Below the pieces are notes generated by a model that did no database searches, had not been told where the DNA came from, and saw nothing but the letters and a program-made list of their open reading frames with translations. DNA of 48,256 bases from a virus, in IMG/VR virus record IMGVR_UViG_3300027770_000086, positions 1 through 48,256 of that record. One strand, written 5' to 3'. A program made the position numbers and the translations under genes. Below are positions 10,024 through 45,531 of this stretch, piece after piece. How positions within the stretch are numbered: position 1 is the stretch's first letter; each line of letters starts with the position of its first letter.

Positions 10024-10028
10024 ATTTG

Positions 10029-31943: not shown

Positions 31944-32039
31944 ATGAGACATTTGAATTTAAATACAGGGAACACGCCGACAACACCTAATGGTGATACG
32001 GGCACTCTATGCTTAGATTCAGATACTGATGTTGGATAA
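31944..32039 (+). CDS. Micro-gene (31 aa)
   Basis: MRHLNLNTGNTPTTPNGDTG..., 31 codons, with a TATTTATA motif just upstream and a strong terminator 24 bases after the stop. The isolated promoter-frame-terminator unit supports a deliberately expressed peptide. Asn/Thr/Gly/Asp-rich, no membrane helix. No known family; a small RNA remains possible. Confidence 0.5.
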   Translation: MRHLNLNTGNTPTTPNGDTGTLCLDSDTDVG

Positions 32040-32063
32040 TTAAAAAATGAAGCCAAATATTAA

Positions 32064-32090
32064 AACCCTGAATCTTGAAAGTTCAGGGTT
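32064..32090 (+). terminator. Terminator before the tRNA array
   Basis: AACCCTGAA / TTCAGGGTT with a 9-base loop followed by seven T. Confidence 0.88.
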
Positions 32091-32107
32091 TTTTTATTAT
32101 TGGATAT

Positions 32108-32180
32108 AGAGTAGTTGACCAATAGGTAGGTCCCTTGCTTTGGGAGCAAGTGCGTGCAGGTTCGAACCCTGTCTACTCTA
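32108..32180 (+). tRNA. tRNA-Pro(UGG)
   Basis: Acceptor AGAGTAG/CTACTCT, D-stem GACC/GGTC, anticodon stem CTTGC/GCAAG with loop TTTGGGA (TGG). Discriminator A followed by CT; no CCA. Confidence 0.95.
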
Positions 32181-32182
32181 CT

Positions 32183-32314
32183 ATGAAAAAAGAAAAACAT
32201 CCATTTTGGAGTATTACGACTTTGTTTTTAGGAATAATATTTGTATTTTTGTCTCCAGTGATAGTAGGTTGGAATTTGTGGTTATTTGTAAGAGTCTCCT
32301 TAGCTCAGCGATAG
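32183..32314 (+). CDS. Small membrane protein (43 aa) overlapping tRNA-Asn
   Basis: ATG 32183, 2 bases after tRNA-Pro, opens a 43-codon frame: MKKEKHPFWSITTLFLGIIF, one long hydrophobic helix (LFLGIIFVFLSPVIVGW) and WLFVRVSLAQR. The last seven codons are the first 21 bases of tRNA-Asn. The helix is too well formed to be an accidental frame, but the overlap means full translation and tRNA maturation compete on one transcript. No family recognised. Confidence 0.5.
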   Translation: MKKEKHPFWSITTLFLGIIFVFLSPVIVGWNLWLFVRVSLAQR

Positions 32315-32365
32315 AGCGATTCGCTGTTAACGAATAAGTCCCTGGTTTGAACCCAGGAGGAGACG
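32294..32365 (+). tRNA. tRNA-Asn(GUU)
   Basis: Acceptor GTCTCCT/AGGAGAC, anticodon stem ATTCG/CGAAT with loop CTGTTAA, T-arm CCTGG-TTTGAAC-CCAGG. Discriminator G then CA. Confidence 0.95.
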
Positions 32366-32371
32366 CAAAAA

Positions 32372-32445
32372 GGATTGTTGGTGAAGTTGGTTATCATGCT
32401 ACCCTGTCACGGTAGAGTTCACGGGTTCGAGTCCCGTACGGTCCG
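32372..32445 (+). tRNA. tRNA-Asp(GUC)
   Basis: Acceptor GGATTGT/ACGGTCC (two G-U type pairs), anticodon stem CTACC/GGTAG, loop CTGTCAC. Discriminator G then CA. Confidence 0.94.
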
Positions 32446-32460
32446 CAAAGTGGGTAAAAC

Positions 32461-32496
32461 GTGTAGTAACCACAGGAATGATATCTTCCACTACAC
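32461..32496. ncRNA. Structured spacer between tRNA-Asp and tRNA-Gly
   Basis: GTGTAGT (32461-32467) pairs with ACTACAC (32490-32496); inside, GGAA/TTCC forms a second short helix around TGATATC. Fills the 55-base gap between the tRNA genes. Confidence 0.45.
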
Positions 32497-32500
32497 TCTC

Positions 32501-32572
32501 GCAGTAGTCGTATAATGGTTATTACTTCACCTTGCCAAGGTGGAGACGGAGGTCCGATTCCTCTCTACTGCT
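32501..32572 (+). tRNA. tRNA-Gly(GCC)
   Basis: Acceptor GCAGTAG/CTACTGC, anticodon stem TCACC/GGTGG, loop TTGCCAA. Discriminator T then CA. Confidence 0.95.
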
Positions 32573-32578
32573 CAATAA

Positions 32579-32652
32579 GCGGATTTCGCCTAGTTGGTAT
32601 GGCATCACACTTCCAATGTGAAATAGGGTCGGTTCGAGCCCGATAATCCGCT
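32579..32652 (+). tRNA. tRNA-Gly(UCC)
   Basis: Acceptor GCGGATT/AATCCGC, anticodon stem TCACA/TGTGA, loop CTTCCAA. Discriminator T then CA. Confidence 0.95.
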
Positions 32653-32661
32653 CAAGGGGTG

Positions 32662-32700
32662 TGTGGGAACCCATGAATATGTGATGAGCATATACCCACA
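32662..32700. ncRNA. Structured spacer between tRNA-Gly and tRNA-Thr
   Basis: TGTGGG (32662-32667) pairs with CCCACA (32695-32700) and ATATG (32677-32681) with CATAT (32689-32693), a two-step hairpin filling the gap. Confidence 0.45.
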
Positions 32701-32704
32701 AATT

Positions 32705-32777
32705 GCCTCCTTAGCTCAGCTGGTAGAGCGTATCATTTGTAATGATAATGTCGTTGGTTCGATTCCGACAGGAGGCT
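32705..32777 (+). tRNA. tRNA-Thr(UGU)
   Basis: Acceptor GCCTCCT/AGGAGGC, anticodon stem TATCA/TGATA, loop TTTGTAA. Discriminator T then CA. A long frame starting at 32663 only translates through this tRNA. Confidence 0.95.
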
Positions 32778-32791
32778 CAAAATTTATATTT

Positions 32792-33025
32792 ATGAGTATT
32801 TTTATTGGATACTACCTTGTATGTGTAGTATATTGTTTTTATCAGTTGTTTAAAAACCTTAATAACAGGTATAGTGATGACCCCACAGGTGGTTCACCTG
32901 AATTAGACACCATTATGGTTATGGTGATGGCTTGGTTATTGGCACCAATTGATGTATCTTTAACTTGGATTAGATGGTACAAAGAAGCGGAAATTGTTAG
33001 AAGGAGACAAACAAAAATATTTTAA
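32792..33025 (+). CDS. Small membrane protein
   Basis: 77 residues from ATG 32792 (MSIFIGYYLVCVVYCFYQLF); the longer frame upstream is a translated tRNA. Two hydrophobic segments (1-20 and 45-65, TIMVMVMAWLLAPIDVSLTW) and a basic tail. A TATATTTATG sequence overlaps its ATG. Stop overlaps the sulfotransferase start by one base. No family recognised. Confidence 0.6.
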   Translation: MSIFIGYYLVCVVYCFYQLFKNLNNRYSDDPTGGSPELDTIMVMVMAWLLAPIDVSLTWIRWYKEAEIVRRRQTKIF

Positions 33026-33624
33026 TGCCATATTCAGATAATTTAAAAGTTTTTTGGTTTACACCTATGAGGGCGGCAACTCGTTCATGCGACATTATAA
33101 TGCGACATTTAGACTTTACAGATTTATCACACAGGTTTTTAGAAGACAAATTACATGAACAATATTATTGTGTGTCTAATATTAGAAATCCGTATTCTAG
33201 ATTAGTTTCAATCTATCACATATATTGTCATCATCAAAAAAGAGAACCAAATGATTTTAGGAATTGGGTAATCAAAAAATTGCGAGAAGAGGTTGAGTTC
33301 CCAATTCAAACTTTAAATTATCAGATTAATTTATCAAAAATATATTCTTCTTGTAATAGATTTCCTGATTATTTAATAAGACAAGAATTTCTTGAAGAGG
33401 ATATTAGAAATTTATGGTTTATAAAAGAAAATATGTCTGAAGAATTAGAAATTATAATTCAAGATAACATTGTAAATAACGGGTATTTAACTGAATTTGG
33501 AAAAAGGAACCCTTGGCAAGAATATTATAATAATTCATTGTCAAACTACGTTTATAACTTTTTAGAAAAAGATTTTCAATTATTTGGATACGACAAAAAC
33601 TCTTGGAAAAATGGCACACCCTAA
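33025..33624 (+). CDS. Sulfotransferase-like protein (copy 1)
   Basis: 199 residues. FWFTPMRAATRSCDIIM (about 10-26) is the PAPS 5'-phosphosulfate loop, and YCVSNIRNPYSRLVSIYH (about 48-65) the 3'-phosphate (R-x-P-x2-R-x2-S) motif of the sulfotransferase_2 type. Ends YVYNFLEKDFQLFGYDKNSW, matching FDLFGYER in the second copy at 41889. Predicted to move sulfate from PAPS to a sugar or peptide hydroxyl. It lies in the tRNA array, coupled to a membrane protein. Confidence 0.8.
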   Translation: MPYSDNLKVFWFTPMRAATRSCDIIMRHLDFTDLSHRFLEDKLHEQYYCVSNIRNPYSRLVSIYHIYCHHQKREPNDFRNWVIKKLREEVEFPIQTLNYQINLSKIYSSCNRFPDYLIRQEFLEEDIRNLWFIKENMSEELEIIIQDNIVNNGYLTEFGKRNPWQEYYNNSLSNYVYNFLEKDFQLFGYDKNSWKNGTP

Positions 33625-33958
33625 TGTACATGCAAAATCATCCGCCAAAAAATTTGGTGGAAAACCAGAAGATTACATCCATTTACATGAATGGTTAGAT
33701 GAGACCAAAGGATGGTTTGGAGATTCTTTACACAGAATGTTTAGACATCATAGTGAAGGTATTTTTGAGATGGAAAAACGTTTTGGTACTGAATTCCTTA
33801 ATAGTGATGGTAAAATAGTTTACACCAGATATGTTGGAGAACAACATGTTAAAGAAGATTGTAACAACTATATTCCGTCAGCTAAAGAATGGGTTAATAA
33901 CATATCAACCAACCAAAGACCTCAATGGATGACCAGAACACTTAAACTTGAAGACTAA
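33611..33958 (+). CDS. DUF6915-type protein
   Basis: 115 residues from ATG 33611 (MAHPNVHAKSSAKKFGGKPE). The sequence DYIHLHEWLDETKGWFGDSL, HRMFRHHSEGIFEMEKRFG and EQHVKEDCNNYIPSAKEWV follows the small DUF6915 pattern (HP..HA..SA.KFGG...DY...H.W.D.TK......HR...HH..GIF......G...........R...EQHV.ED.......P....W). It overlaps the sulfotransferase end by 14 bases. Many His residues suggest metal binding. Function unknown. Confidence 0.82.
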   Translation: MAHPNVHAKSSAKKFGGKPEDYIHLHEWLDETKGWFGDSLHRMFRHHSEGIFEMEKRFGTEFLNSDGKIVYTRYVGEQHVKEDCNNYIPSAKEWVNNISTNQRPQWMTRTLKLED

Positions 33959-33966
33959 TATTTATT
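33959..33966 (+). promoter_or_regulatory. TATTTATT motif
   Basis: One mismatch from TATTTATA, 3 bases before ATG 33970. Confidence 0.3.
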
Positions 33967-33969
33967 ATT

Positions 33970-34713
33970 ATGAAAAGAAAAAAAGTGAATTCATTTAATA
34001 TATTAACCCCTGAGGATAAACAATACCTTAGAAGAGTTTGTAGATACCTCGCATCACTTGGAATGCAAGACGGAAGTATTGAGATGGATATTGACAATAG
34101 CGCCGATTTTGATTTTAATGACATAGATTGGGAACATGAGGGTAGTCATTTTTCAAACAATTATAGTGCCGAAGTACCTGATGGTTTAGTACCAATATTG
34201 AAAAAAATAGGAGATTATATTCAAGAAAATGGAATATTCCAAGTACCTGATGAAGAAGATTTAAATTACGAAAGAATTGATTTTGATATTGATTGTGAAA
34301 AATCAGAAATATCAGTAAATCATTGGTGGACATTTTATCAAAGAGGTGATGGTAATAGTGTTGAATGGGATAGTGAAGAAGGAAAAGATATTTTTGAGGA
34401 ATGGGAAAAAGATGGAGTTCTTGATGACCTTGAGGTTCCAAATGACGGCATATTAACTGTAAAATATAATGGTTCAGGTGACTCAGGATATATTGAAAGT
34501 AGTTTTGAAGAAAACGGTGATGGAGTACCTACTTCAATAGAGGATTGGTGTTATAGACAACTTGAAAATAACTTTGGTGGGTGGGAAATTAATGAAGGTT
34601 CAGATGGCGAATTTATATTTAACTTCCATGAAATGACGATTGAATTAAATCACACCTATAATGTAGAGGAAAACGCTCACGATACCATCTACGAAGAAAG
34701 TTTTGCAGAGTAA
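33970..34713 (+). CDS. Acidic hypothetical protein
   Basis: 247 residues, strongly acidic (DNSADFDFNDIDWEHEGS, WDSEEGKDIFEEWEKDG). Alternating strand-like stretches suggest one alpha/beta domain. Basic N-terminus (MKRKKVNSFNILTPEDKQYL). No family recognised. A host-type promoter for the next tRNAs begins just after its stop. Confidence 0.6.
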   Translation: MKRKKVNSFNILTPEDKQYLRRVCRYLASLGMQDGSIEMDIDNSADFDFNDIDWEHEGSHFSNNYSAEVPDGLVPILKKIGDYIQENGIFQVPDEEDLNYERIDFDIDCEKSEISVNHWWTFYQRGDGNSVEWDSEEGKDIFEEWEKDGVLDDLEVPNDGILTVKYNGSGDSGYIESSFEENGDGVPTSIEDWCYRQLENNFGGWEINEGSDGEFIFNFHEMTIELNHTYNVEENAHDTIYEESFAE

Positions 34714-34732
34714 CTTTTTTTTATTATCTTTG
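34702..34732 (+). promoter_or_regulatory. Host-type promoter driving the tRNA-Arg end of the array
   Basis: TTTG at 34702-34705 and TATCTTTG at 34725-34732, 19 bases apart, 9 bases before tRNA-Arg(UCU). Confidence 0.7.
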
Positions 34733-34741
34733 TAATATATT

Positions 34742-34815
34742 GGTTCGGTAGCTCAGCTGGATAGAGCACAAACCTTCTAAGTTTGGGGTCAAAGGTTCGA
34801 ATCCTTTCCGAATCA
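34742..34815 (+). tRNA. tRNA-Arg(UCU)
   Basis: Acceptor GGTTCGG/CCGAATC, anticodon stem CAAAC/GTTTG, loop CTTCTAA. Discriminator A then CA. Confidence 0.95.
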
Positions 34816-34820
34816 CAAGG

Positions 34821-34909
34821 TCATATCTTCAGGTACCCATACAGCGGTGAGATGGGTTAAATAAGATACAATTTCTCGGCGCTGGAAGTAGAATGCCTGT
34901 CTGATGTGA
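34821..34909 (+). ncRNA. Multi-helix structured RNA between tRNA-Arg and tRNA-Leu
   Basis: TCATATC (34821-34827) pairs with GATGTGA (34903-34909, one G-U), then CAGG (34830-34833) with CCTG (34896-34899), and CCCAT (34836-34840) with ATGGG (34852-34856). The two outer helices stack across 2-3 base internal loops, giving a closed domain about 89 bases long with no reading frame. Confidence 0.55.
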
Positions 34910-34913
34910 TTAT

Positions 34914-34994
34914 GCCCCGATGGTGAAATGGTAGACACTCAAGTCTTAGGAACTTGTGACGTAAGTCGTGTCGGTTCGAGTCCGACTTGGGGTA
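34914..34994 (+). tRNA. tRNA-Leu(UAG)
   Basis: Class II; acceptor GCCCCGA/TTGGGGT with wobble ends, D-arm TGGTGAAATGGTAGACAC, anticodon stem CAAGT/ACTTG, loop CTTAGGA. Discriminator A then CA. Confidence 0.93.
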
Positions 34995-35021
34995 CACTTG
35001 ATACTTTAATAAAAAGGTATA

Positions 35022-35029
35022 TATTTATA
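35022..35029 (+). promoter_or_regulatory. TATTTATA motif, putative late promoter
   Basis: Exact motif, 5 bases before the 28-aa frame at 35035. Confidence 0.45.
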
Positions 35030-35034
35030 ATAAC

Positions 35035-35121
35035 ATGAACACTACAATGCGTCATATAGTCTTTAGTAAACAACAAGAAATTTGTTGGTATGAGATTATG
35101 CCTTGTAGTTCAGACGTGTAA
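35035..35121 (+). CDS. Micro-gene (28 aa)
   Basis: MNTTMRHIVFSKQQEICWYE... ends SSDV. A TATTTATA motif is 5 bases upstream and a strong terminator 37 bases after the stop, the same unit layout as 31944. Contains two Cys and two Trp/Tyr. May be a small RNA instead. Confidence 0.45.
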   Translation: MNTTMRHIVFSKQQEICWYEIMPCSSDV

Positions 35122-35158
35122 ATGATTTGGTAATTCCTGAAGAGAGTTATATATACAG

Positions 35159-35188
35159 ACCCTGAACGACAGAAATGAAGTTCGGGGT
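35159..35188 (+). terminator. Terminator
   Basis: ACCCTGAAC / GTTCGGGGT, 9-bp stem with 12-base loop, followed by eight T. Closely similar in sequence to the terminator at 32064. Confidence 0.85.
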
Positions 35189-35221
35189 TTTTTTATTTTT
35201 GGTTCTTTGAAATATTGGTTG

Positions 35222-35229
35222 TAAATTTG
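35222..35229 (+). promoter_or_regulatory. TAAATTTG -7 element
   Basis: TAnnTTTG 6 bases before tRNA-Glu; restarts transcription after the terminator at 35159. Confidence 0.55.
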
Positions 35230-35235
35230 CTAAAT

Positions 35236-35307
35236 GCTCGGTTCGACTATCGGTTAGGTCATCAGGTTTTCATCCTGAAAAGACGGGTTCGATTCCCGTA
35301 CCGAGTA
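35236..35307 (+). tRNA. tRNA-Glu(UUC)
   Basis: Acceptor GCTCGGT/ACCGAGT, anticodon stem TCAGG/CCTGA, loop TTTTCAT. Discriminator A then CA. Confidence 0.93.
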
Positions 35308-35310
35308 CAA

Positions 35311-35400
35311 GATGATGGCATAAGAGAGGACGAATTCCGAAAGGATAAGGTTACTAATCCCTGCCGTAAACGCATTGAGAGAGTCAATGGTGTCATCATT
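35311..35400 (+). ncRNA. Multi-helix structured RNA between tRNA-Glu and tRNA-Val
   Basis: GATGATGGCA (35311-35320) pairs with TGTCATCATT (35391-35400), 10 bp with two G-U pairs. CATTGA (35373-35378) / TCAATG (35384-35389) and TTCC-GAAA-GGA form hairpins inside. Ends 3 bases before tRNA-Val. Confidence 0.6.
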
Positions 35401-35403
35401 TAT

Positions 35404-35476
35404 AGTCCTTTAGCTCAGTTGGAAGAGCACTTGGTTTACATCCAAGGTGTCGTAGGTTCGATTCCTACAGGGACTA
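35404..35476 (+). tRNA. tRNA-Val(UAC)
   Basis: Acceptor AGTCCTT/AGGGACT, anticodon stem CTTGG/CCAAG, loop TTTACAT. Discriminator A then CA. Confidence 0.95.
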
Positions 35477-35486
35477 CAAAAAATGA

Positions 35487-35546
35487 CAAAGTCGGAAGTA
35501 AAACCCGTCCAAAGTCGGAAGTAAAAACAAGACAAAATCGGAAGTT
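35487..35546 (+). repeat. 23-bp tandem repeat, about 2.6 copies
   Basis: Copies begin at 35487, 35510 and 35533 with core AAAGTCGGAAGTAAAA (third copy AAAATCGGAAGTTATG). Exact 23-base spacing. It leads directly into the ATG at 35547. Confidence 0.75.
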
Positions 35547-35762
35547 ATGAAATATATTTTTAGAGGTCATATTGTGTTTGAGTACAAACCAGATGAAAAA
35601 AGAGATAAAGTGGTTCAAGGTAAGATTCATGATGCAATTCCTGCATTTGATTTTTGTCATATGATTCCTGAGGATTATAGATTGTTAGGAGAGTTTTTTA
35701 ACACAGTTTATAGGCATACTCAAGGAGAAGATGTACCTTTGGAAGATATTGAAGTGAATTAA
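35547..35762 (+). CDS. Hypothetical protein
   Basis: 71 residues (MKYIFRGHIVFEYKPDEKRD...), small alpha/beta protein between tRNA-Val and tRNA-Phe, starting inside the last repeat unit. Ends with an acidic EDVPLEDIEVN. No family recognised. Confidence 0.6.
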   Translation: MKYIFRGHIVFEYKPDEKRDKVVQGKIHDAIPAFDFCHMIPEDYRLLGEFFNTVYRHTQGEDVPLEDIEVN

Positions 35763-35763
35763 T

Positions 35764-35836
35764 GGTGACGTAGCTCAGTTGGTAGAGCACTTGCCTGAAG
35801 AGCAAGGTGTCGTCAGTTCGATTCTGACCGTTACCA
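35764..35836 (+). tRNA. tRNA-Phe(GAA)
   Basis: Acceptor GGTGACG/CGTTACC, anticodon stem CTTGC/GCAAG, loop CTGAAGA. One base after the preceding stop codon. Discriminator A then CA. Confidence 0.95.
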
Positions 35837-35841
35837 CAACA

Positions 35842-35914
35842 GACCTTGTAGCTCAGTTGGTAGAGCACTAAACTTTTAATTTAGGAGTCCCGAGTTCGAG
35901 TCTCGGCGGGGTCA
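35842..35914 (+). tRNA. tRNA-Lys(UUU)
   Basis: Acceptor GACCTTG/CGGGGTC, anticodon stem CTAAA/TTTAG, loop CTTTTAA. Discriminator A then CA. Confidence 0.95.
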
Positions 35915-35929
35915 CAAAAAATGTATATT

Positions 35930-36163
35930 ATGAAAGCAATACTTGAATTTAACTTACCTGATGACCAACAAGATTTTGATTTGGCAAATAGTGGTCTCAA
36001 ATTTTGGAGTGTACTATGGGAATTGGACCAGTCTTTGAGGTCTAAGACAAAATACGCGTCTGATGATTTACCAAAAGATAAGTATGATGCTTATCAAGAA
36101 ATAAGGGAAGAACTCCGTGAACTAATGTCAAACAATAACATCAGTTTTGACATGGTTCATTAG
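35930..36163 (+). CDS. Conserved small phage protein
   Basis: 77 residues from ATG 35930; an ATG three codons earlier is possible. MKAILEFNLPDDQQDFDLAN...FWSVLWELDQSLRSKTKY matches a short protein seen in many phages (MKA.LEFNLP.D..E...A..G......LW.LDQ.LR...K). Function unknown. Between tRNA-Lys and the next gene. Confidence 0.75.
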   Translation: MKAILEFNLPDDQQDFDLANSGLKFWSVLWELDQSLRSKTKYASDDLPKDKYDAYQEIREELRELMSNNNISFDMVH

Positions 36164-36188
36164 AAAAATATAATAAATAATTAAAATT

Positions 36189-36521
36189 ATGGCAACATTA
36201 GAAACACAATATAAAAACTTTCTTTTAGATAATCCTGATTCAAAGTTTACCTTTGAGGAATGGAAAGAATGGTTTGGAAAACAACTGGTAGAATCCATTA
36301 AAAATATGGAAAGAACATTTAATAGTGATGACTTGTCTTGGATTGCATTCAGTTTATTAGAATATAGTCGCTCAATGGATTATGAAGGTGATTTAAGTGA
36401 TTGTGGTAATGAAATTGGGAATATGGTTGGGAGTAAATATAAAAATATGACTGAGGGTGAGATTGAAGATTTTATCACAGGAATAAGACATGGGATTTCA
36501 TTAACAAATGGAACCCATTAA
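36189..36521 (+). CDS. Hypothetical protein
   Basis: 110 residues, mostly helical (TFEEWKEWFGKQLVESIKNM, WIAFSLLEYSRSMDYEG). No family recognised. A TAATAAATAATT leader precedes it; tRNA-Cys follows 5 bases after its stop. Confidence 0.6.
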   Translation: MATLETQYKNFLLDNPDSKFTFEEWKEWFGKQLVESIKNMERTFNSDDLSWIAFSLLEYSRSMDYEGDLSDCGNEIGNMVGSKYKNMTEGEIEDFITGIRHGISLTNGTH

Positions 36522-36526
36522 AATAA

Positions 36527-36598
36527 GGTCAGTTGGCCGAGTGGCTTAGGCGATAGTCTGCAAAACTATTTACACAGGTTCGAATCCTGTACTGACCT
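36527..36598 (+). tRNA. tRNA-Cys(GCA)
   Basis: Acceptor GGTCAGT/ACTGACC, anticodon stem ATAGT/ACTAT, loop CTGCAAA. Discriminator T then CA; that A is the first base of the next ATG. Confidence 0.94.
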
Positions 36599-36599
36599 C

Positions 36600-36719
36600 A
36601 TGAGAAAAAAACAAATAGACCAAATGGTCAAGGCAATTAAAAAGGTGACGAAGAAAGCCTGTAAGAATAAGAAATCTGCTCGTAAGTTTCTTGTTAAGGC
36701 TGGAATTATAAAAAAATAA
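36600..36719 (+). CDS. Small basic protein (39 aa)
   Basis: ATG one base after tRNA-Cys. MRKKQIDQMVKAIKKVTKKA, then KNKKSARKFLVKAGIIKK. The ...A.KFLV.AGI.. ending is typical of small conserved phage proteins. 13 of 39 residues are Lys, so nucleic-acid binding is plausible. Stops 1 base before tRNA-Trp. Confidence 0.65.
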   Translation: MRKKQIDQMVKAIKKVTKKACKNKKSARKFLVKAGIIKK

Positions 36720-36720
36720 T

Positions 36721-36793
36721 GCGTGTGTAGCTCAATTGGTAGAGCACTAGTCTCCAAAACTAGGAGTTTCAGGTTCGAGTCCTGACATGCGTG
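36721..36793 (+). tRNA. tRNA-Trp(CCA)
   Basis: Acceptor GCGTGTG/CATGCGT with wobble pairs, anticodon stem CTAGT/ACTAG, loop CTCCAAA. Discriminator G then CA. Confidence 0.93.
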
Positions 36794-36801
36794 CAGAGGT
36801 T

Positions 36802-36894
36802 GATTGGGGAATGATACAGGTTAGCCTGTTGGTGGAGCTCAAAAAGCATTGGCCGACTGTATCGGAGTTGAAACCAACGTTAGTAATGCCAATC
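36802..36894 (+). ncRNA. Multi-helix structured RNA between tRNA-Trp and tRNA-Tyr
   Basis: GATTGG (36802-36807) closes with CCAATC (36889-36894). Inside, GATACAG (36813-36819) pairs with CTGTATC (36857-36863) and GTTG (36867-36870) with CAAC (36875-36878). Nested helices and no open frame other than the translated-tRNA artefact. Confidence 0.6.
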
Positions 36895-36897
36895 ATA

Positions 36898-36940
36898 AAA
36901 GGAGTTGTCCACTCGACCATCTTCTCCTTTCCTGTTTTTT
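36898..36940 (+). terminator. Terminator-like hairpin before tRNA-Tyr
   Basis: AAAGGAG (36898-36904) / CTCCTTT (36924-36930), GTC/GAC inside, then CCTGTTTTTT. May end the structured RNA, or act as a processing signal. Confidence 0.5.
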
Positions 36941-37022
36941 GGGAGTATTGCCTAGTGGCAATGGCAGGACACTGTAAATGTCCCCTCTTTTGAGTTCGTT
37001 GGTTCGAGTCCAGCTACTCCCA
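36941..37022 (+). tRNA. tRNA-Tyr(GUA)
   Basis: Class II; acceptor GGGAGTA/TACTCCC, anticodon stem GGACA/TGTCC, loop CTGTAAA, extra arm CCTCTTTTGAG. Discriminator A then CA. Confidence 0.94.
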
Positions 37023-37023
37023 C

Positions 37024-37128
37024 AAAACTTACCTCAGGCGGTGAAACCGTGTGATGGCCGATGAATGAAAGTGACGCACTTAATGGCCGTGGCCCGTAAG
37101 GGGATAAAACATTCATATGGTAGGTTTT
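37024..37128 (+). ncRNA. Multi-helix structured RNA between tRNA-Tyr and tRNA-Met
   Basis: AAAACTTACC (37024-37033) pairs with GGTAGGTTTT (37119-37128), 10 bp with one G-U. Next ATGAATG (37061-37067) / CATTCAT (37110-37116). Hairpins GCGGT-GAA-ACCGT and CCC-GTAA-GGG lie in the branches. The element fills the whole gap, 1 base from tRNA-Tyr and 2 from the next tRNA. Confidence 0.65.
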
Positions 37129-37130
37129 TG

Positions 37131-37204
37131 GGACCCTTAGCTCAGTCGGTTAGAGCAAATGACTCATAATCATTAGGTCCACGGTTCGAGCCCGTGAGGG
37201 TCCA
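37131..37204 (+). tRNA. tRNA with CAU anticodon (Ile2 or Met)
   Basis: Acceptor GGACCCT/AGGGTCC, anticodon stem AATGA/TCATT, loop CTCATAA. The acceptor and D-arm resemble bacterial tRNA-Ile(CAU), which is converted to lysidine to read AUA, more than elongator Met. Discriminator A then CA. Confidence 0.9.
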
Positions 37205-37210
37205 CAATTT

Positions 37211-37281
37211 TATCCTCTGGTGTAACGGTAACACAATTGGTTTTGGTCCAATTATTTAAGGTTCGAATCCTTAGGGGATAA
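37211..37281 (+). tRNA. tRNA-Gln(UUG)
   Basis: Acceptor TATCCTC/GGGGATA, anticodon stem ATTGG/CCAAT, loop TTTTGGT. Discriminator A then CT. Confidence 0.92.
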
Positions 37282-37285
37282 CTTC

Positions 37286-37357
37286 GGTTCCATAGTTTAA
37301 TGGAAAAACATTTCGCTACGGACGAAAAGAGTTGGGGTTCGAATCCCTATGGGACCT
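37286..37357 (+). tRNA. tRNA-Arg(ACG)
   Basis: Acceptor GGTTCCA/TGGGACC, anticodon stem TTTCG/CGAAA, loop CTACGGA. ACG would be deaminated to ICG. Discriminator T then CA. Confidence 0.93.
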
Positions 37358-37363
37358 CAAAAT

Positions 37364-37435
37364 TGCGGTGTAGTTCAGTGGTAGAACACTTGATTCATAT
37401 CCAAGTCGTCAGAAGTTCAATTCTTCTCACCGCAA
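37364..37435 (+). tRNA. tRNA-Met(CAU)
   Basis: Acceptor TGCGGTG/CACCGCA, anticodon loop TTCATAT with stem CTTGA/CCAAG (one mismatch next to the loop), T-arm AGAAG-TTCAATT-CTTCT. Looks like an elongator type. Discriminator A then CA. Confidence 0.9.
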
Positions 37436-37440
37436 CACAT

Positions 37441-37512
37441 GGTGGCTATAGCCTAATGGTAGGGCGGAAGCTTGTGGCGCTTCATGTGAGAGTTCGATTC
37501 TCTCTAGTCACA
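37441..37512 (+). tRNA. tRNA-His(GUG)
   Basis: Acceptor GTGGCTA/TAGTCAC with an extra G at -1, anticodon stem GAAGC/GCTTC, loop TTGTGGC. Discriminator A, where most bacterial tRNA-His have C; then CA. Confidence 0.93.
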
Positions 37513-37517
37513 CAATG

Positions 37518-37634
37518 AGGTAGAGAAGGATTCAGTAGAAACTGATGCGGCCGTCGCACAATATCGGGGTTGGAGCACAGGGCTCCTATACGTGATGTAA
37601 CCCGAGGCCAAACCCCTTTTGGGTGCTTCTACCT
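37518..37634 (+). ncRNA. Multi-helix structured RNA between tRNA-His and tRNA-Ile
   Basis: AGGTAGA (37518-37524) pairs with TCTACCT (37628-37634). Inside: TCAGT-AGAA-ACTGA (37532-37545), GCGGCCGTCGC, TCGGGGTT / AACCCGA around GGAGC-ACAGG-GCTCC (37572-37586), and ACCCC-TTTT-GGGT. At least four helices in 117 bases, G/C-richer than flanking genes; no reading frame. Confidence 0.65.
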
Positions 37635-37642
37635 TATTTTAT

Positions 37643-37716
37643 TGGAGTATAGCTCAGTTGGTTAGAGCGTCATCCTGATACGGTGAATGTCGGTGGTTCG
37701 AGTCCACCTACTCCAA
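37643..37716 (+). tRNA. tRNA-Ile(GAU)
   Basis: Acceptor TGGAGTA/TACTCCA, anticodon stem TCATC/GGTGA, loop CTGATAC. Discriminator A then CA. Confidence 0.94.
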
Positions 37717-37720
37717 CAAT

Positions 37721-37808
37721 GGAGAGTTGGGAGAGAGGTTTAATCCAATAGTTTGCTAAACTGTCGTACTCCTAAAGGGTACCGCTGGTTCAAATCCAGC
37801 ACTCTCCG
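37721..37808 (+). tRNA. tRNA-Ser(GCU)
   Basis: Class II; acceptor GGAGAGT/ACTCTCC, anticodon stem ATAGT/ACTGT, loop TTGCTAA, long variable arm GTACTCCTAAAGGGTAC. Discriminator G then CA. Confidence 0.93.
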
Positions 37809-37854
37809 CAAAATAATTTAACCTATAAATTGACTAATTAGATAAGTTTTTATA

Positions 37855-37862
37855 TATTTATA
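37855..37862 (+). promoter_or_regulatory. TATTTATA motif, putative late promoter
   Basis: Exact motif 41 bases before ATG 37904, with an A-rich leader in between. Confidence 0.4.
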
Positions 37863-37903
37863 GTCTTATAAGTTATTAAACATTAACCTAAAAAAAAAAG
37901 AAC

Positions 37904-41167: not shown

Positions 41168-41282
41168 CTTTATTCATTTTATCTCCCAACCAAAATGCGC
41201 CCCCTGCAATTGCTAAAATTATTATTACAATAGAAACAAGCCCTATTATTAAATTAAATACCTGATGTAGTATTGTCATCAT
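41151..41282 (-). CDS. Small membrane protein (43 aa)
   Basis: ATG 41282 or 41279: MMTILHQVFNLIIGLVSIVI, IILAIAGGAFWLGDKMNKDD. One hydrophobic helix with a Gly/Trp-rich end. It overlaps the end of the HAD_SAK-like gene by 29 bases and the next start by 17, both usual in this genome. Missed by length cut-offs. Confidence 0.55.
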   Translation of the reverse strand: MMTILHQVFNLIIGLVSIVIIILAIAGGAFWLGDKMNKDDRYK

Positions 41283-41868
41283 TTAATAGTTTTATGATTT
41301 TATCTTTTAATCCTGTTTGTTTAATCCCTTCACTACTTTTTGGTGTGAGTACAAAATTGGTCAAACCCCAATCCATTTCCATTTCACCCCAACTCTCGTG
41401 AGTCTGTGGTATTCCCATATTCAAATCATCTACTGCAACCCATTCTGTGACCTCTGGATGGTCTTTAAGGTATTGAAGTATCTCTAAGGACCTTGACTGT
41501 TCTAAATTCCACTGACGAGACCATGGGAAGTTTTTAGGTTCTTGAAATTGACCTAACTTTTTGGTAAATCCGATTGGTTTTTTTGAGATTCCTTGGGATA
41601 AATAATACCCACCTAATTCTTCTAAAGTTGCATGAAATCTCCAATCAGAAGATACTACAATCTCTGCTCCTGTTTCTTCTAAAATTTCATTTAAAATTTT
41701 AATAGATTTCTTATCAAAATCATCAAATCTTACATCAACTGGCGCTTCGCTGAGTAAATTACTTGACTCAGGATTTGCGGAGCGATATTTCGCCCATTTT
41801 TTTGTACGACCCCCCCAATTATTTGATAAACAGATTACTCCATCATTATCTAAAAATATGACTTTCAT
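41254..41868 (-). CDS. HAD_SAK-like phosphatase/repair-type protein
   Basis: 204 residues. MKVIFLDNDGVICLSNNWGG (DxDGV nucleophile), EIVVSSDWRFHATLEELGG, and TEWVAVDDLNMG. The DGV...SSDWR...W.A.DD pattern is that of the HAD domain found in 'Swiss army knife' RNA-repair proteins (HAD_SAK_2). As a stand-alone domain it may dephosphorylate nucleic-acid ends. TATCTTTG promoter 6 bases before the ATG. Confidence 0.78.
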   Translation of the reverse strand: MKVIFLDNDGVICLSNNWGGRTKKWAKYRSANPESSNLLSEAPVDVRFDDFDKKSIKILNEILEETGAEIVVSSDWRFHATLEELGGYYLSQGISKKPIGFTKKLGQFQEPKNFPWSRQWNLEQSRSLEILQYLKDHPEVTEWVAVDDLNMGIPQTHESWGEMEMDWGLTNFVLTPKSSEGIKQTGLKDKIIKLLNDDNTTSGI

Positions 41869-45133: not shown

Positions 45134-45531
45134 TGGTGGACCCGAGCGGAGTCGAACCGCTGTGTTTCCTGCTCAACAATAAGTGACTACATGTTTAGTA
45201 CAACATTGTTTCTCAATGTTACGAAATATCAGGTCTGATGTATGTGAGAAACCTACCTGCAAACAACTTGGTCTCAGAATTATTTTAAAGGAGCTCTGAC
45301 CTGTGACCCCTATAGTGGACTTCTGTTCCTAGGTTATATGTCCTAACCGACCCGAGACTGTTCTGTACTAATTAAGCACCAACAGTAACAGCTTCTCTAG
45401 TTAAACCTAAAGCAGCCATTTTAGCAAAAGTATTGCCATTTGAATTTTTTCACCATGGATTTAAGTCATAGATGAATTCTGACTACATGCCACCTACCCC
45501 TGACACCTGAAATCAAATCCAAGGCGGGCCC
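45134..45531 (-). ncRNA. ssrA: Transfer-messenger RNA
   Basis: 398 bases. tRNA-like ends: 5' GGGCCCG pairs with 3' CGGGTCC (one G-U), then A-CCA encoded at 45137-45134; T-arm CAGCGGTTCGACTCCGCTC. Internal tag frame on the minus strand: the first plausible resume codon is GGC at 45437 (GNTFAKMAALGLT...), continuing through REAVTVGA to TAA at 45374-45372, about 21 residues. Most tags end in LAA or a close variant; this ends VGA. Rescues stalled ribosomes with SmpB; no smpB is seen here. Pseudoknots were not modelled. Confidence 0.88.

Follow-up and report, generated by a model that had tools for sequence, protein, structure and literature searches.

The 48,256-base virus record IMGVR_UViG_3300027770_000086, analyzed here over its full length (the window), carries an array of 22 tRNA genes at 32108-37809, as located with ARAGORN and the Rfam tRNA model, and seven of the gaps between these genes each hold a discrete RNA (F1 to F7; array features are on the + strand). 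An earlier note had placed seven folding gaps in this array, and all of them are found at its sites, with starts at 32447, 32654, 34817, 35309, 36795, 37024, and 37514; its observation is confirmed and is stronger than first stated. Paired positions change in step among relatives, which shows that evolution maintains the folds of these RNAs. The seven are very probably independent structured RNA genes, and the spacers probably represent independent, trans-acting phage small RNAs that are usually freed by tRNA maturation.

Relatives were taken from IMG/VR. The array protein encoded at 33970-34713 led to five related contigs plus one near-identical contig, and alignment of two conserved array proteins led to about 150 further loci, some on contigs longer than 300 kb. 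For the proposed helices, two-sided changes were counted and compared with those obtained when the 3' letters were dealt anew (shuffled) and when the partners were slid; the shuffle counts ignore sequence relatedness, whereas the slid controls take account of it and agree. This covariation is the evidence that carries most weight. Compensatory changes are present for all seven RNAs, the sampling being broad for F1, F2, F3, and F5, limited to five sequences for F6, and thin for F4 and F7. In the relatives of F1, F2, and F5, 97.9-100% of the proposed pairs hold, and the two-sided changes lie well above the controls.

F1, in the Asp-Gly gap (32447-32500), is a pseudoknot made of helix A (32450-32453/32470-32473), helix B (32461-32467/32490-32496), and hairpin C (32475-32478/32486-32489). 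Across 14 relatives, 100% of its cells are paired, and 21 cells are two-sided, against 5.7 in the shuffled control and at most 3 in the slid ones. F2, in the Gly-Thr gap (32654-32704), has the same layout, with helix B at 32663-32667/32695-32699, hairpin C at 32677-32681/32689-32693, and the pseudoknot at 32657-32660/32669-32672. Helices B and C are 100% paired in 12 relatives, with 11 two-sided cells against 3.1 shuffled, and the pseudoknot helix, compared by eye and outside this cell count, takes the forms GGGT/ACCC, GGGTT/AACCC, and GGGCT/AGCCC. F5, in the Trp-Tyr gap (36797-36933), consists of an outer helix (P1, 36801-36807/36889-36895), a second helix (P2, 36813-36819/36857-36863) crossed by a pseudoknot (36828-36833/36873-36878), and a 3' hairpin (36898-36904/36924-36930). 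In the 21 sequences of the window's own class, 97.9% of the cells are paired and 65 are two-sided (17.5 shuffled, slid at most 10), and in 18 relatives of a sister class 99.5% are paired and 81 are two-sided (21.8 shuffled, slid at most 7). The model of the sister class, built without the window, recovers the window copy at an E-value of 3e-19.

F3, in the Arg-Leu gap (34817-34913), was aligned with 13 relatives and with 41 diverse relatives. Its helices lie at 34821-34827/34903-34909 (outer), 34830-34834/34895-34899, 34842-34845/34881-34884, and 34849-34851/34875-34877 (inner), and a pseudoknot joins CCC at 34836-34838 to GGG at 34854-34856. Among the 41 diverse relatives, 96.7% of the cells are paired and 109 are two-sided, against 41.1 shuffled and at most 16 slid; the CCC/GGG pairs hardly vary and hence contribute no covariation themselves. 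F6, in the Tyr-Met gap (37024-37130), has an outer helix at 37024-37033/37119-37128 enclosing inner hairpins, and its five sequences are 97.1% paired with 6 two-sided cells against 2.0 shuffled. F4, in the Glu-Val gap (35309-35403), has an outer helix at 35310-35321/35390-35401 and a hairpin at 35373-35378/35384-35389; its only two distinct known sequences show two two-sided changes in the hairpin. F7, in the His-Ile gap (37514-37642), has an outer helix at 37514-37525/37627-37638 and several inner hairpins. In its distant relative L022, compared by eye, TCAGT/ACTGA becomes TCTAC/GTAGA and GGAGC/GCTCC becomes GGAAC/GTTCC.

The 3' parts of F3 and F5 carry a similar motif, AGTAGAATGCC and AGTAATGCC, ahead of the 3' strand of the outer helix, which may be a contact site common to both RNAs or a chance likeness. 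A likeness of F3 to segments of 16S rRNA was discarded, as the resembling letters covary as a helix, and anti-Shine-Dalgarno mimicry by the F5 3' hairpin was discarded as well, as its letters change along with their pairing partners.

We also compared the folding energy of each gap with that of 200 dinucleotide shuffles. The anticipated energy excess over shuffles holds for four gaps (F3, z -3.3; F4, z -3.2; F6, z -3.0; F7, z -4.4) and fails for three, namely F1 (z -0.4), F2 (z -1.1), and F5 (36795-36940, z -0.16, with a median of -0.5 in its cluster). F1, F2, and F5 lack an energy excess because they are pseudoknots, which are invisible to energy folding. Minimum-energy folding as the sole test was therefore dropped for these three, and used alone it would have thrown out three of the seven. 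The statement that nearly every non-coding gap of the array folds holds for the seven gaps, but not for the Pro-Asn gap (32182-32293), which has a z of +1.3.

A wider survey drew 628 inter-tRNA gaps of 25-299 nt from the relatives, 275 of them unique. The 157 unique non-coding ones have a median z of -1.44, compared with -0.12 for length-matched random stretches (p 5e-18). Because the gaps flanking tRNAs are GC-richer (0.41 versus 0.35, with dinucleotide content preserved by the shuffles), and because their reverse strand (median z -1.10) and open reading frame (ORF)-bearing gaps (-1.16) score low too, the survey is supporting evidence only. This GC difference, together with the three of seven gaps lacking an energy excess, would fit functionless chance folding of GC-richer spacers. 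However, the two-sided compensatory changes far exceed both the shuffled and the slid controls, which refutes chance folding for F1, F2, F3, F5, and F6; the refutation excludes F4 and F7, which are known from few sequences, and for the set as a whole chance folding is hardly credible.

The RNAs come and go like genes. Across arrays, the gap of a given tRNA pair is either as short as 1-10 nt or as long as an RNA or an ORF; for Tyr-Met, as an example, 11 arrays have a gap of 4-10 nt and 7 have one of 65-149 nt. F6 is cleanly absent from the close relatives L012, L013, and L014, and in L012, whose flanks match the window at 94-95% identity, its 107 nt are missing. F3 and F5 are both found in other slots too, F3 also in the Trp-Tyr slot, where its outer helix is another one, and F5 occurs as tandem duplicates in L030, L037, L041, and L110. 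Interiors are exchanged within constant frames: F5 copies have constant ends and a variable middle, giving total lengths from 91 to 139 nt and interiors that look unrelated; F3 of the window and of L012 have a common frame and different interiors; and F4 has its outer helix, but not its interior, in common with the RNA that other phages carry at the Glu-Val site. Slots in the relatives also hold further RNA families unrelated to F1-F7, so the count of seven, correct for the window, is too low a figure for this group of phages. One such family, F8, with GCCAC/GTGGC-type pairing, lies at 186-275 of contig L407 and in array gaps of L195, L267, L203, and L363.

Rare copies lie beyond tRNA arrays. 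F5 stands between protein genes in the tRNA-free loci L179 and L198, and in L205, L252, and L291 it directly follows a tRNA-like gene overlooked by ARAGORN. The F5 copies of L205 and L179 lie upstream of a small ORF and the gene for the terminase large subunit. L407, a contig of a metagenome-assembled genome (MAG), carries F8 and then F3, and no tRNA was found on it. The missed tRNA-like genes (L205 7067-8573, L252 2286-3792, and L291 422-1928) have a long extra stretch between the anticodon arm and the T-arm.

These copies indicate that the RNAs are independent of tRNA neighbors and not merely aids to tRNA processing. The suggestion that they are independent RNAs is well supported: their helices covary, they are gained and lost cleanly, they change slots, and some copies lie away from tRNA arrays. 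The suggestion that they are tRNA-processing guides is argued against by the tRNA-free copies and by the RNA-free stretches of 3-10 nt that form most tRNA junctions of the same arrays. The same two observations bear on a related explanation, that the RNAs are cis-acting spacers, linkers whose folds would only help the tRNA precursor to be separated, cut, or protected. The position of the RNAs within a few bases of both tRNAs, with closing helices beside the tRNA ends, would suit such linkers, but most junctions manage without one, pseudoknots and near-invariant bases are more than a spacer requires, and copies stand between protein genes or without any tRNA. We consider cis-acting spacers unlikely.

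The families appear to belong to phages. The F5 3'-hairpin pattern was found in at least 120 IMG/VR virus stretches and in none of 84,980 prokaryote species genomes, and the F3 pattern was found in at least 120 IMG/VR stretches, with one match in the 84,980 species genomes, on a MAG contig; both species-genome scans looked for exact patterns taken from phage copies. Neither F5 nor F3 matched any of the 50,697 phage records of INPHARED that were scanned. In 11 phage records of 73-326 kb, the F5 sister-class model detects F5 precisely once per record; the F3 model detects a single F3 copy in the window and in 4 of these 11 records.

At the Rfam 15 gathering thresholds, the seven gaps contain no described RNA family, and permissive E-values return only tRNAs, antisense tRNA artifacts, and chance-level matches. 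A literature search turned up nothing specific on RNAs in the tRNA arrays of such phages. The families are new to Rfam 15, while RNAs encoded in phage tRNA clusters are, as a kind, already known. Alternatively, ARAGORN might have overlooked tRNAs that are degenerate or divergent, or tRNA-like RNAs, in these gaps. The RNAs do sit in a tRNA array, T4 rnaC has a tRNA T-arm, and ARAGORN does overlook some phage tRNAs. Yet none of the seven gaps matches the tRNA model, as a cloverleaf with a T-arm should, even at an E-value of 5, and the covarying helices differ from a cloverleaf, so this explanation is largely refuted by the covarying structures and is very improbable.

Conserved structures, co-orientation with the tRNAs, discrete gain and loss, and copies without tRNAs are seen directly; the route of expression is predicted. 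Of 100 unique full copies of F5, 94 have a tRNA in the fetched stretch, and every one of these (94/94) is on the same strand as the tRNA, mostly at most 10 nt from a tRNA. The RNAs would be co-transcribed with the tRNAs from Bacteroidota-type promoters, as the sequence suggests: the pattern TTTG-N16-21-TAnnTTTG occurs 13 times in the window against 4.5 by chance, with matches at 34702-34732, upstream of tRNA-Arg and F3, and at 35198-35229, upstream of tRNA-Glu and F4. From these promoters only, we infer that the host phylum of this large phage is Bacteroidota. The flanking tRNAs may then serve as punctuation. Judging by position and by T4 RNAs C and D, tRNA 3' processing would yield the 5' end of the RNA, RNase P cleavage at the next tRNA would yield its 3' end, and the closing helix beside each cut could protect the product. 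The freed RNA would take a compact, often pseudoknotted fold and is predicted to be stable and to act in trans.

As to what such trans-acting RNAs do, the leading candidate role is to bind a protein of the host or of the phage and thereby to serve as decoys or inhibitors during host takeover or counter-defense. This role is put forward because the families are phage-specific, behave like accessory genes, and keep the outer frame while the interior is replaced, and we propose it tentatively. In its broadest form, large phages with Bacteroidota-type promoters might possess many families of small pseudoknotted RNAs, unrelated to one another and used as an interchangeable arsenal, punctuated by tRNAs and built from constant frames with replaceable interiors, that act as decoys or inhibitors against host defense or for takeover; this is a possibility of a speculative kind. 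Phage tRNA arrays are known to serve counter-defense via the tRNAs themselves (PMC13096335), which makes the location of the RNAs suggestive but proves nothing for F1-F7. Several points weigh against this reading of the seven RNAs and their role. The interior swaps could stem from relaxed constraint and not from an arms race, and exact-pattern scans could miss diverged cellular relatives. F4 is known from two and F7 from four distinct sequences, and the shuffle statistics take no account of kinship among the sequences. In addition, the phage is uncultivated and its array RNAs are known from sequence alone.

Other features of the window were also recorded. One further tRNA lies outside the array, at 10028, and an intrinsic terminator-like hairpin precedes the array at 32062-32092. 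The tRNA genes within 32108-37809 mostly end in the discriminator base plus CA and not in an encoded CCA. About three imperfect direct repeats of AAAGTCGGAAGTAAAA directly follow tRNA-Val at 35478-35546 and are retained in L012 and L013. A strongly conserved DUF6915 protein (33614-33958; Pfam E-value 2e-38) is encoded inside the array; its domain has no assigned function, distant copies occur in Streptomyces and Gordonia phages, and its INPHARED matches are all below 60% identity. In relatives, the Gln-Arg gap (e.g., L110 3144-3223) holds, by eye, a very short conserved MWFLIVWIVLMIIVKWDNDRD-like ORF between two tRNA genes. The window also contains a complete tmRNA gene at 45134-45531 on the - strand (74 bits, Rfam RF00023) and, at 41254-41868 on the - strand, a HAD domain of the 'Swiss Army Knife RNA repair' type (Pfam PF18143), which may mean that the phage also has a gene for RNA repair.

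Among known systems, the nearest catalytic precedent is the theta ribozymes, which are small, pseudoknotted, hepatitis delta virus (HDV)-like RNAs located at the 3' ends of tRNAs in Bacteroidota and Bacillota phages (PMC10879173). Some of the families could accordingly be self-cleaving ribozymes that trim tRNA ends, as in these gut phages: F5 often starts 2-3 nt past a tRNA 3' end, and the pseudoknots have near-invariant core bases. However, a home-made descriptor scan of 32001-37900 found no HDV-like double-pseudoknot layout (P1, P2, P3, and P4, with a cytosine in J4/2), and HDV/theta ribozyme identity was rejected on this ground. The array and its relatives also show several distinct, unrelated folds, with some copies 70-134 nt from a tRNA. 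Self-cleavage of this kind is a rather doubtful explanation. GOLLD and ROOL resemble the independent RNAs proposed here in being pseudoknot-rich phage or prophage RNAs, often near tRNA islands, with no assigned function (PMC12286853). Members of GOLLD often exceed 800 nt, whereas the RNAs here measure about 50-137 nt, and neither covariance model matched the seven gaps in the Rfam 15 gathering and E-value searches. The set of RNAs described here also suggests a general use of phage tRNA arrays as small-RNA cassettes, and that catalogs such as Rfam overlook widespread phage RNA families.

The comparison with RNAs C and D of T4 (species 1 and 2), offered in the earlier note, holds for anatomy but not for descent. 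These RNAs appear late in infection, are confirmed by Northern blot, and have no assigned function (PMC9697503). They are phage RNAs of 119-139 nt in a tRNA cluster, rnaC and rnaD lying 1-6 nt from each other and from tRNA-Arg, and F1-F7 are likewise placed a few bases from a tRNA gene. Searches with models R1 and R2, blastn, and seven nhmmer profiles gave no meaningful match between the T4 RNAs and these RNAs; the sole short blastn match is the tRNA T-arm, a sequence that rnaC bears and F1-F7 lack. T4 RNAs C and D are thus an analogy of position and not relatives. T4 has two RNAs, whereas the window has seven and its relatives have further families, a much larger set in the same kind of place. 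With the T4 pair still lacking an assigned function, the covariation-backed folds, the presence/absence pairs in near-identical phages, and the alternative interiors described here make the role of tRNA-array RNAs testable.

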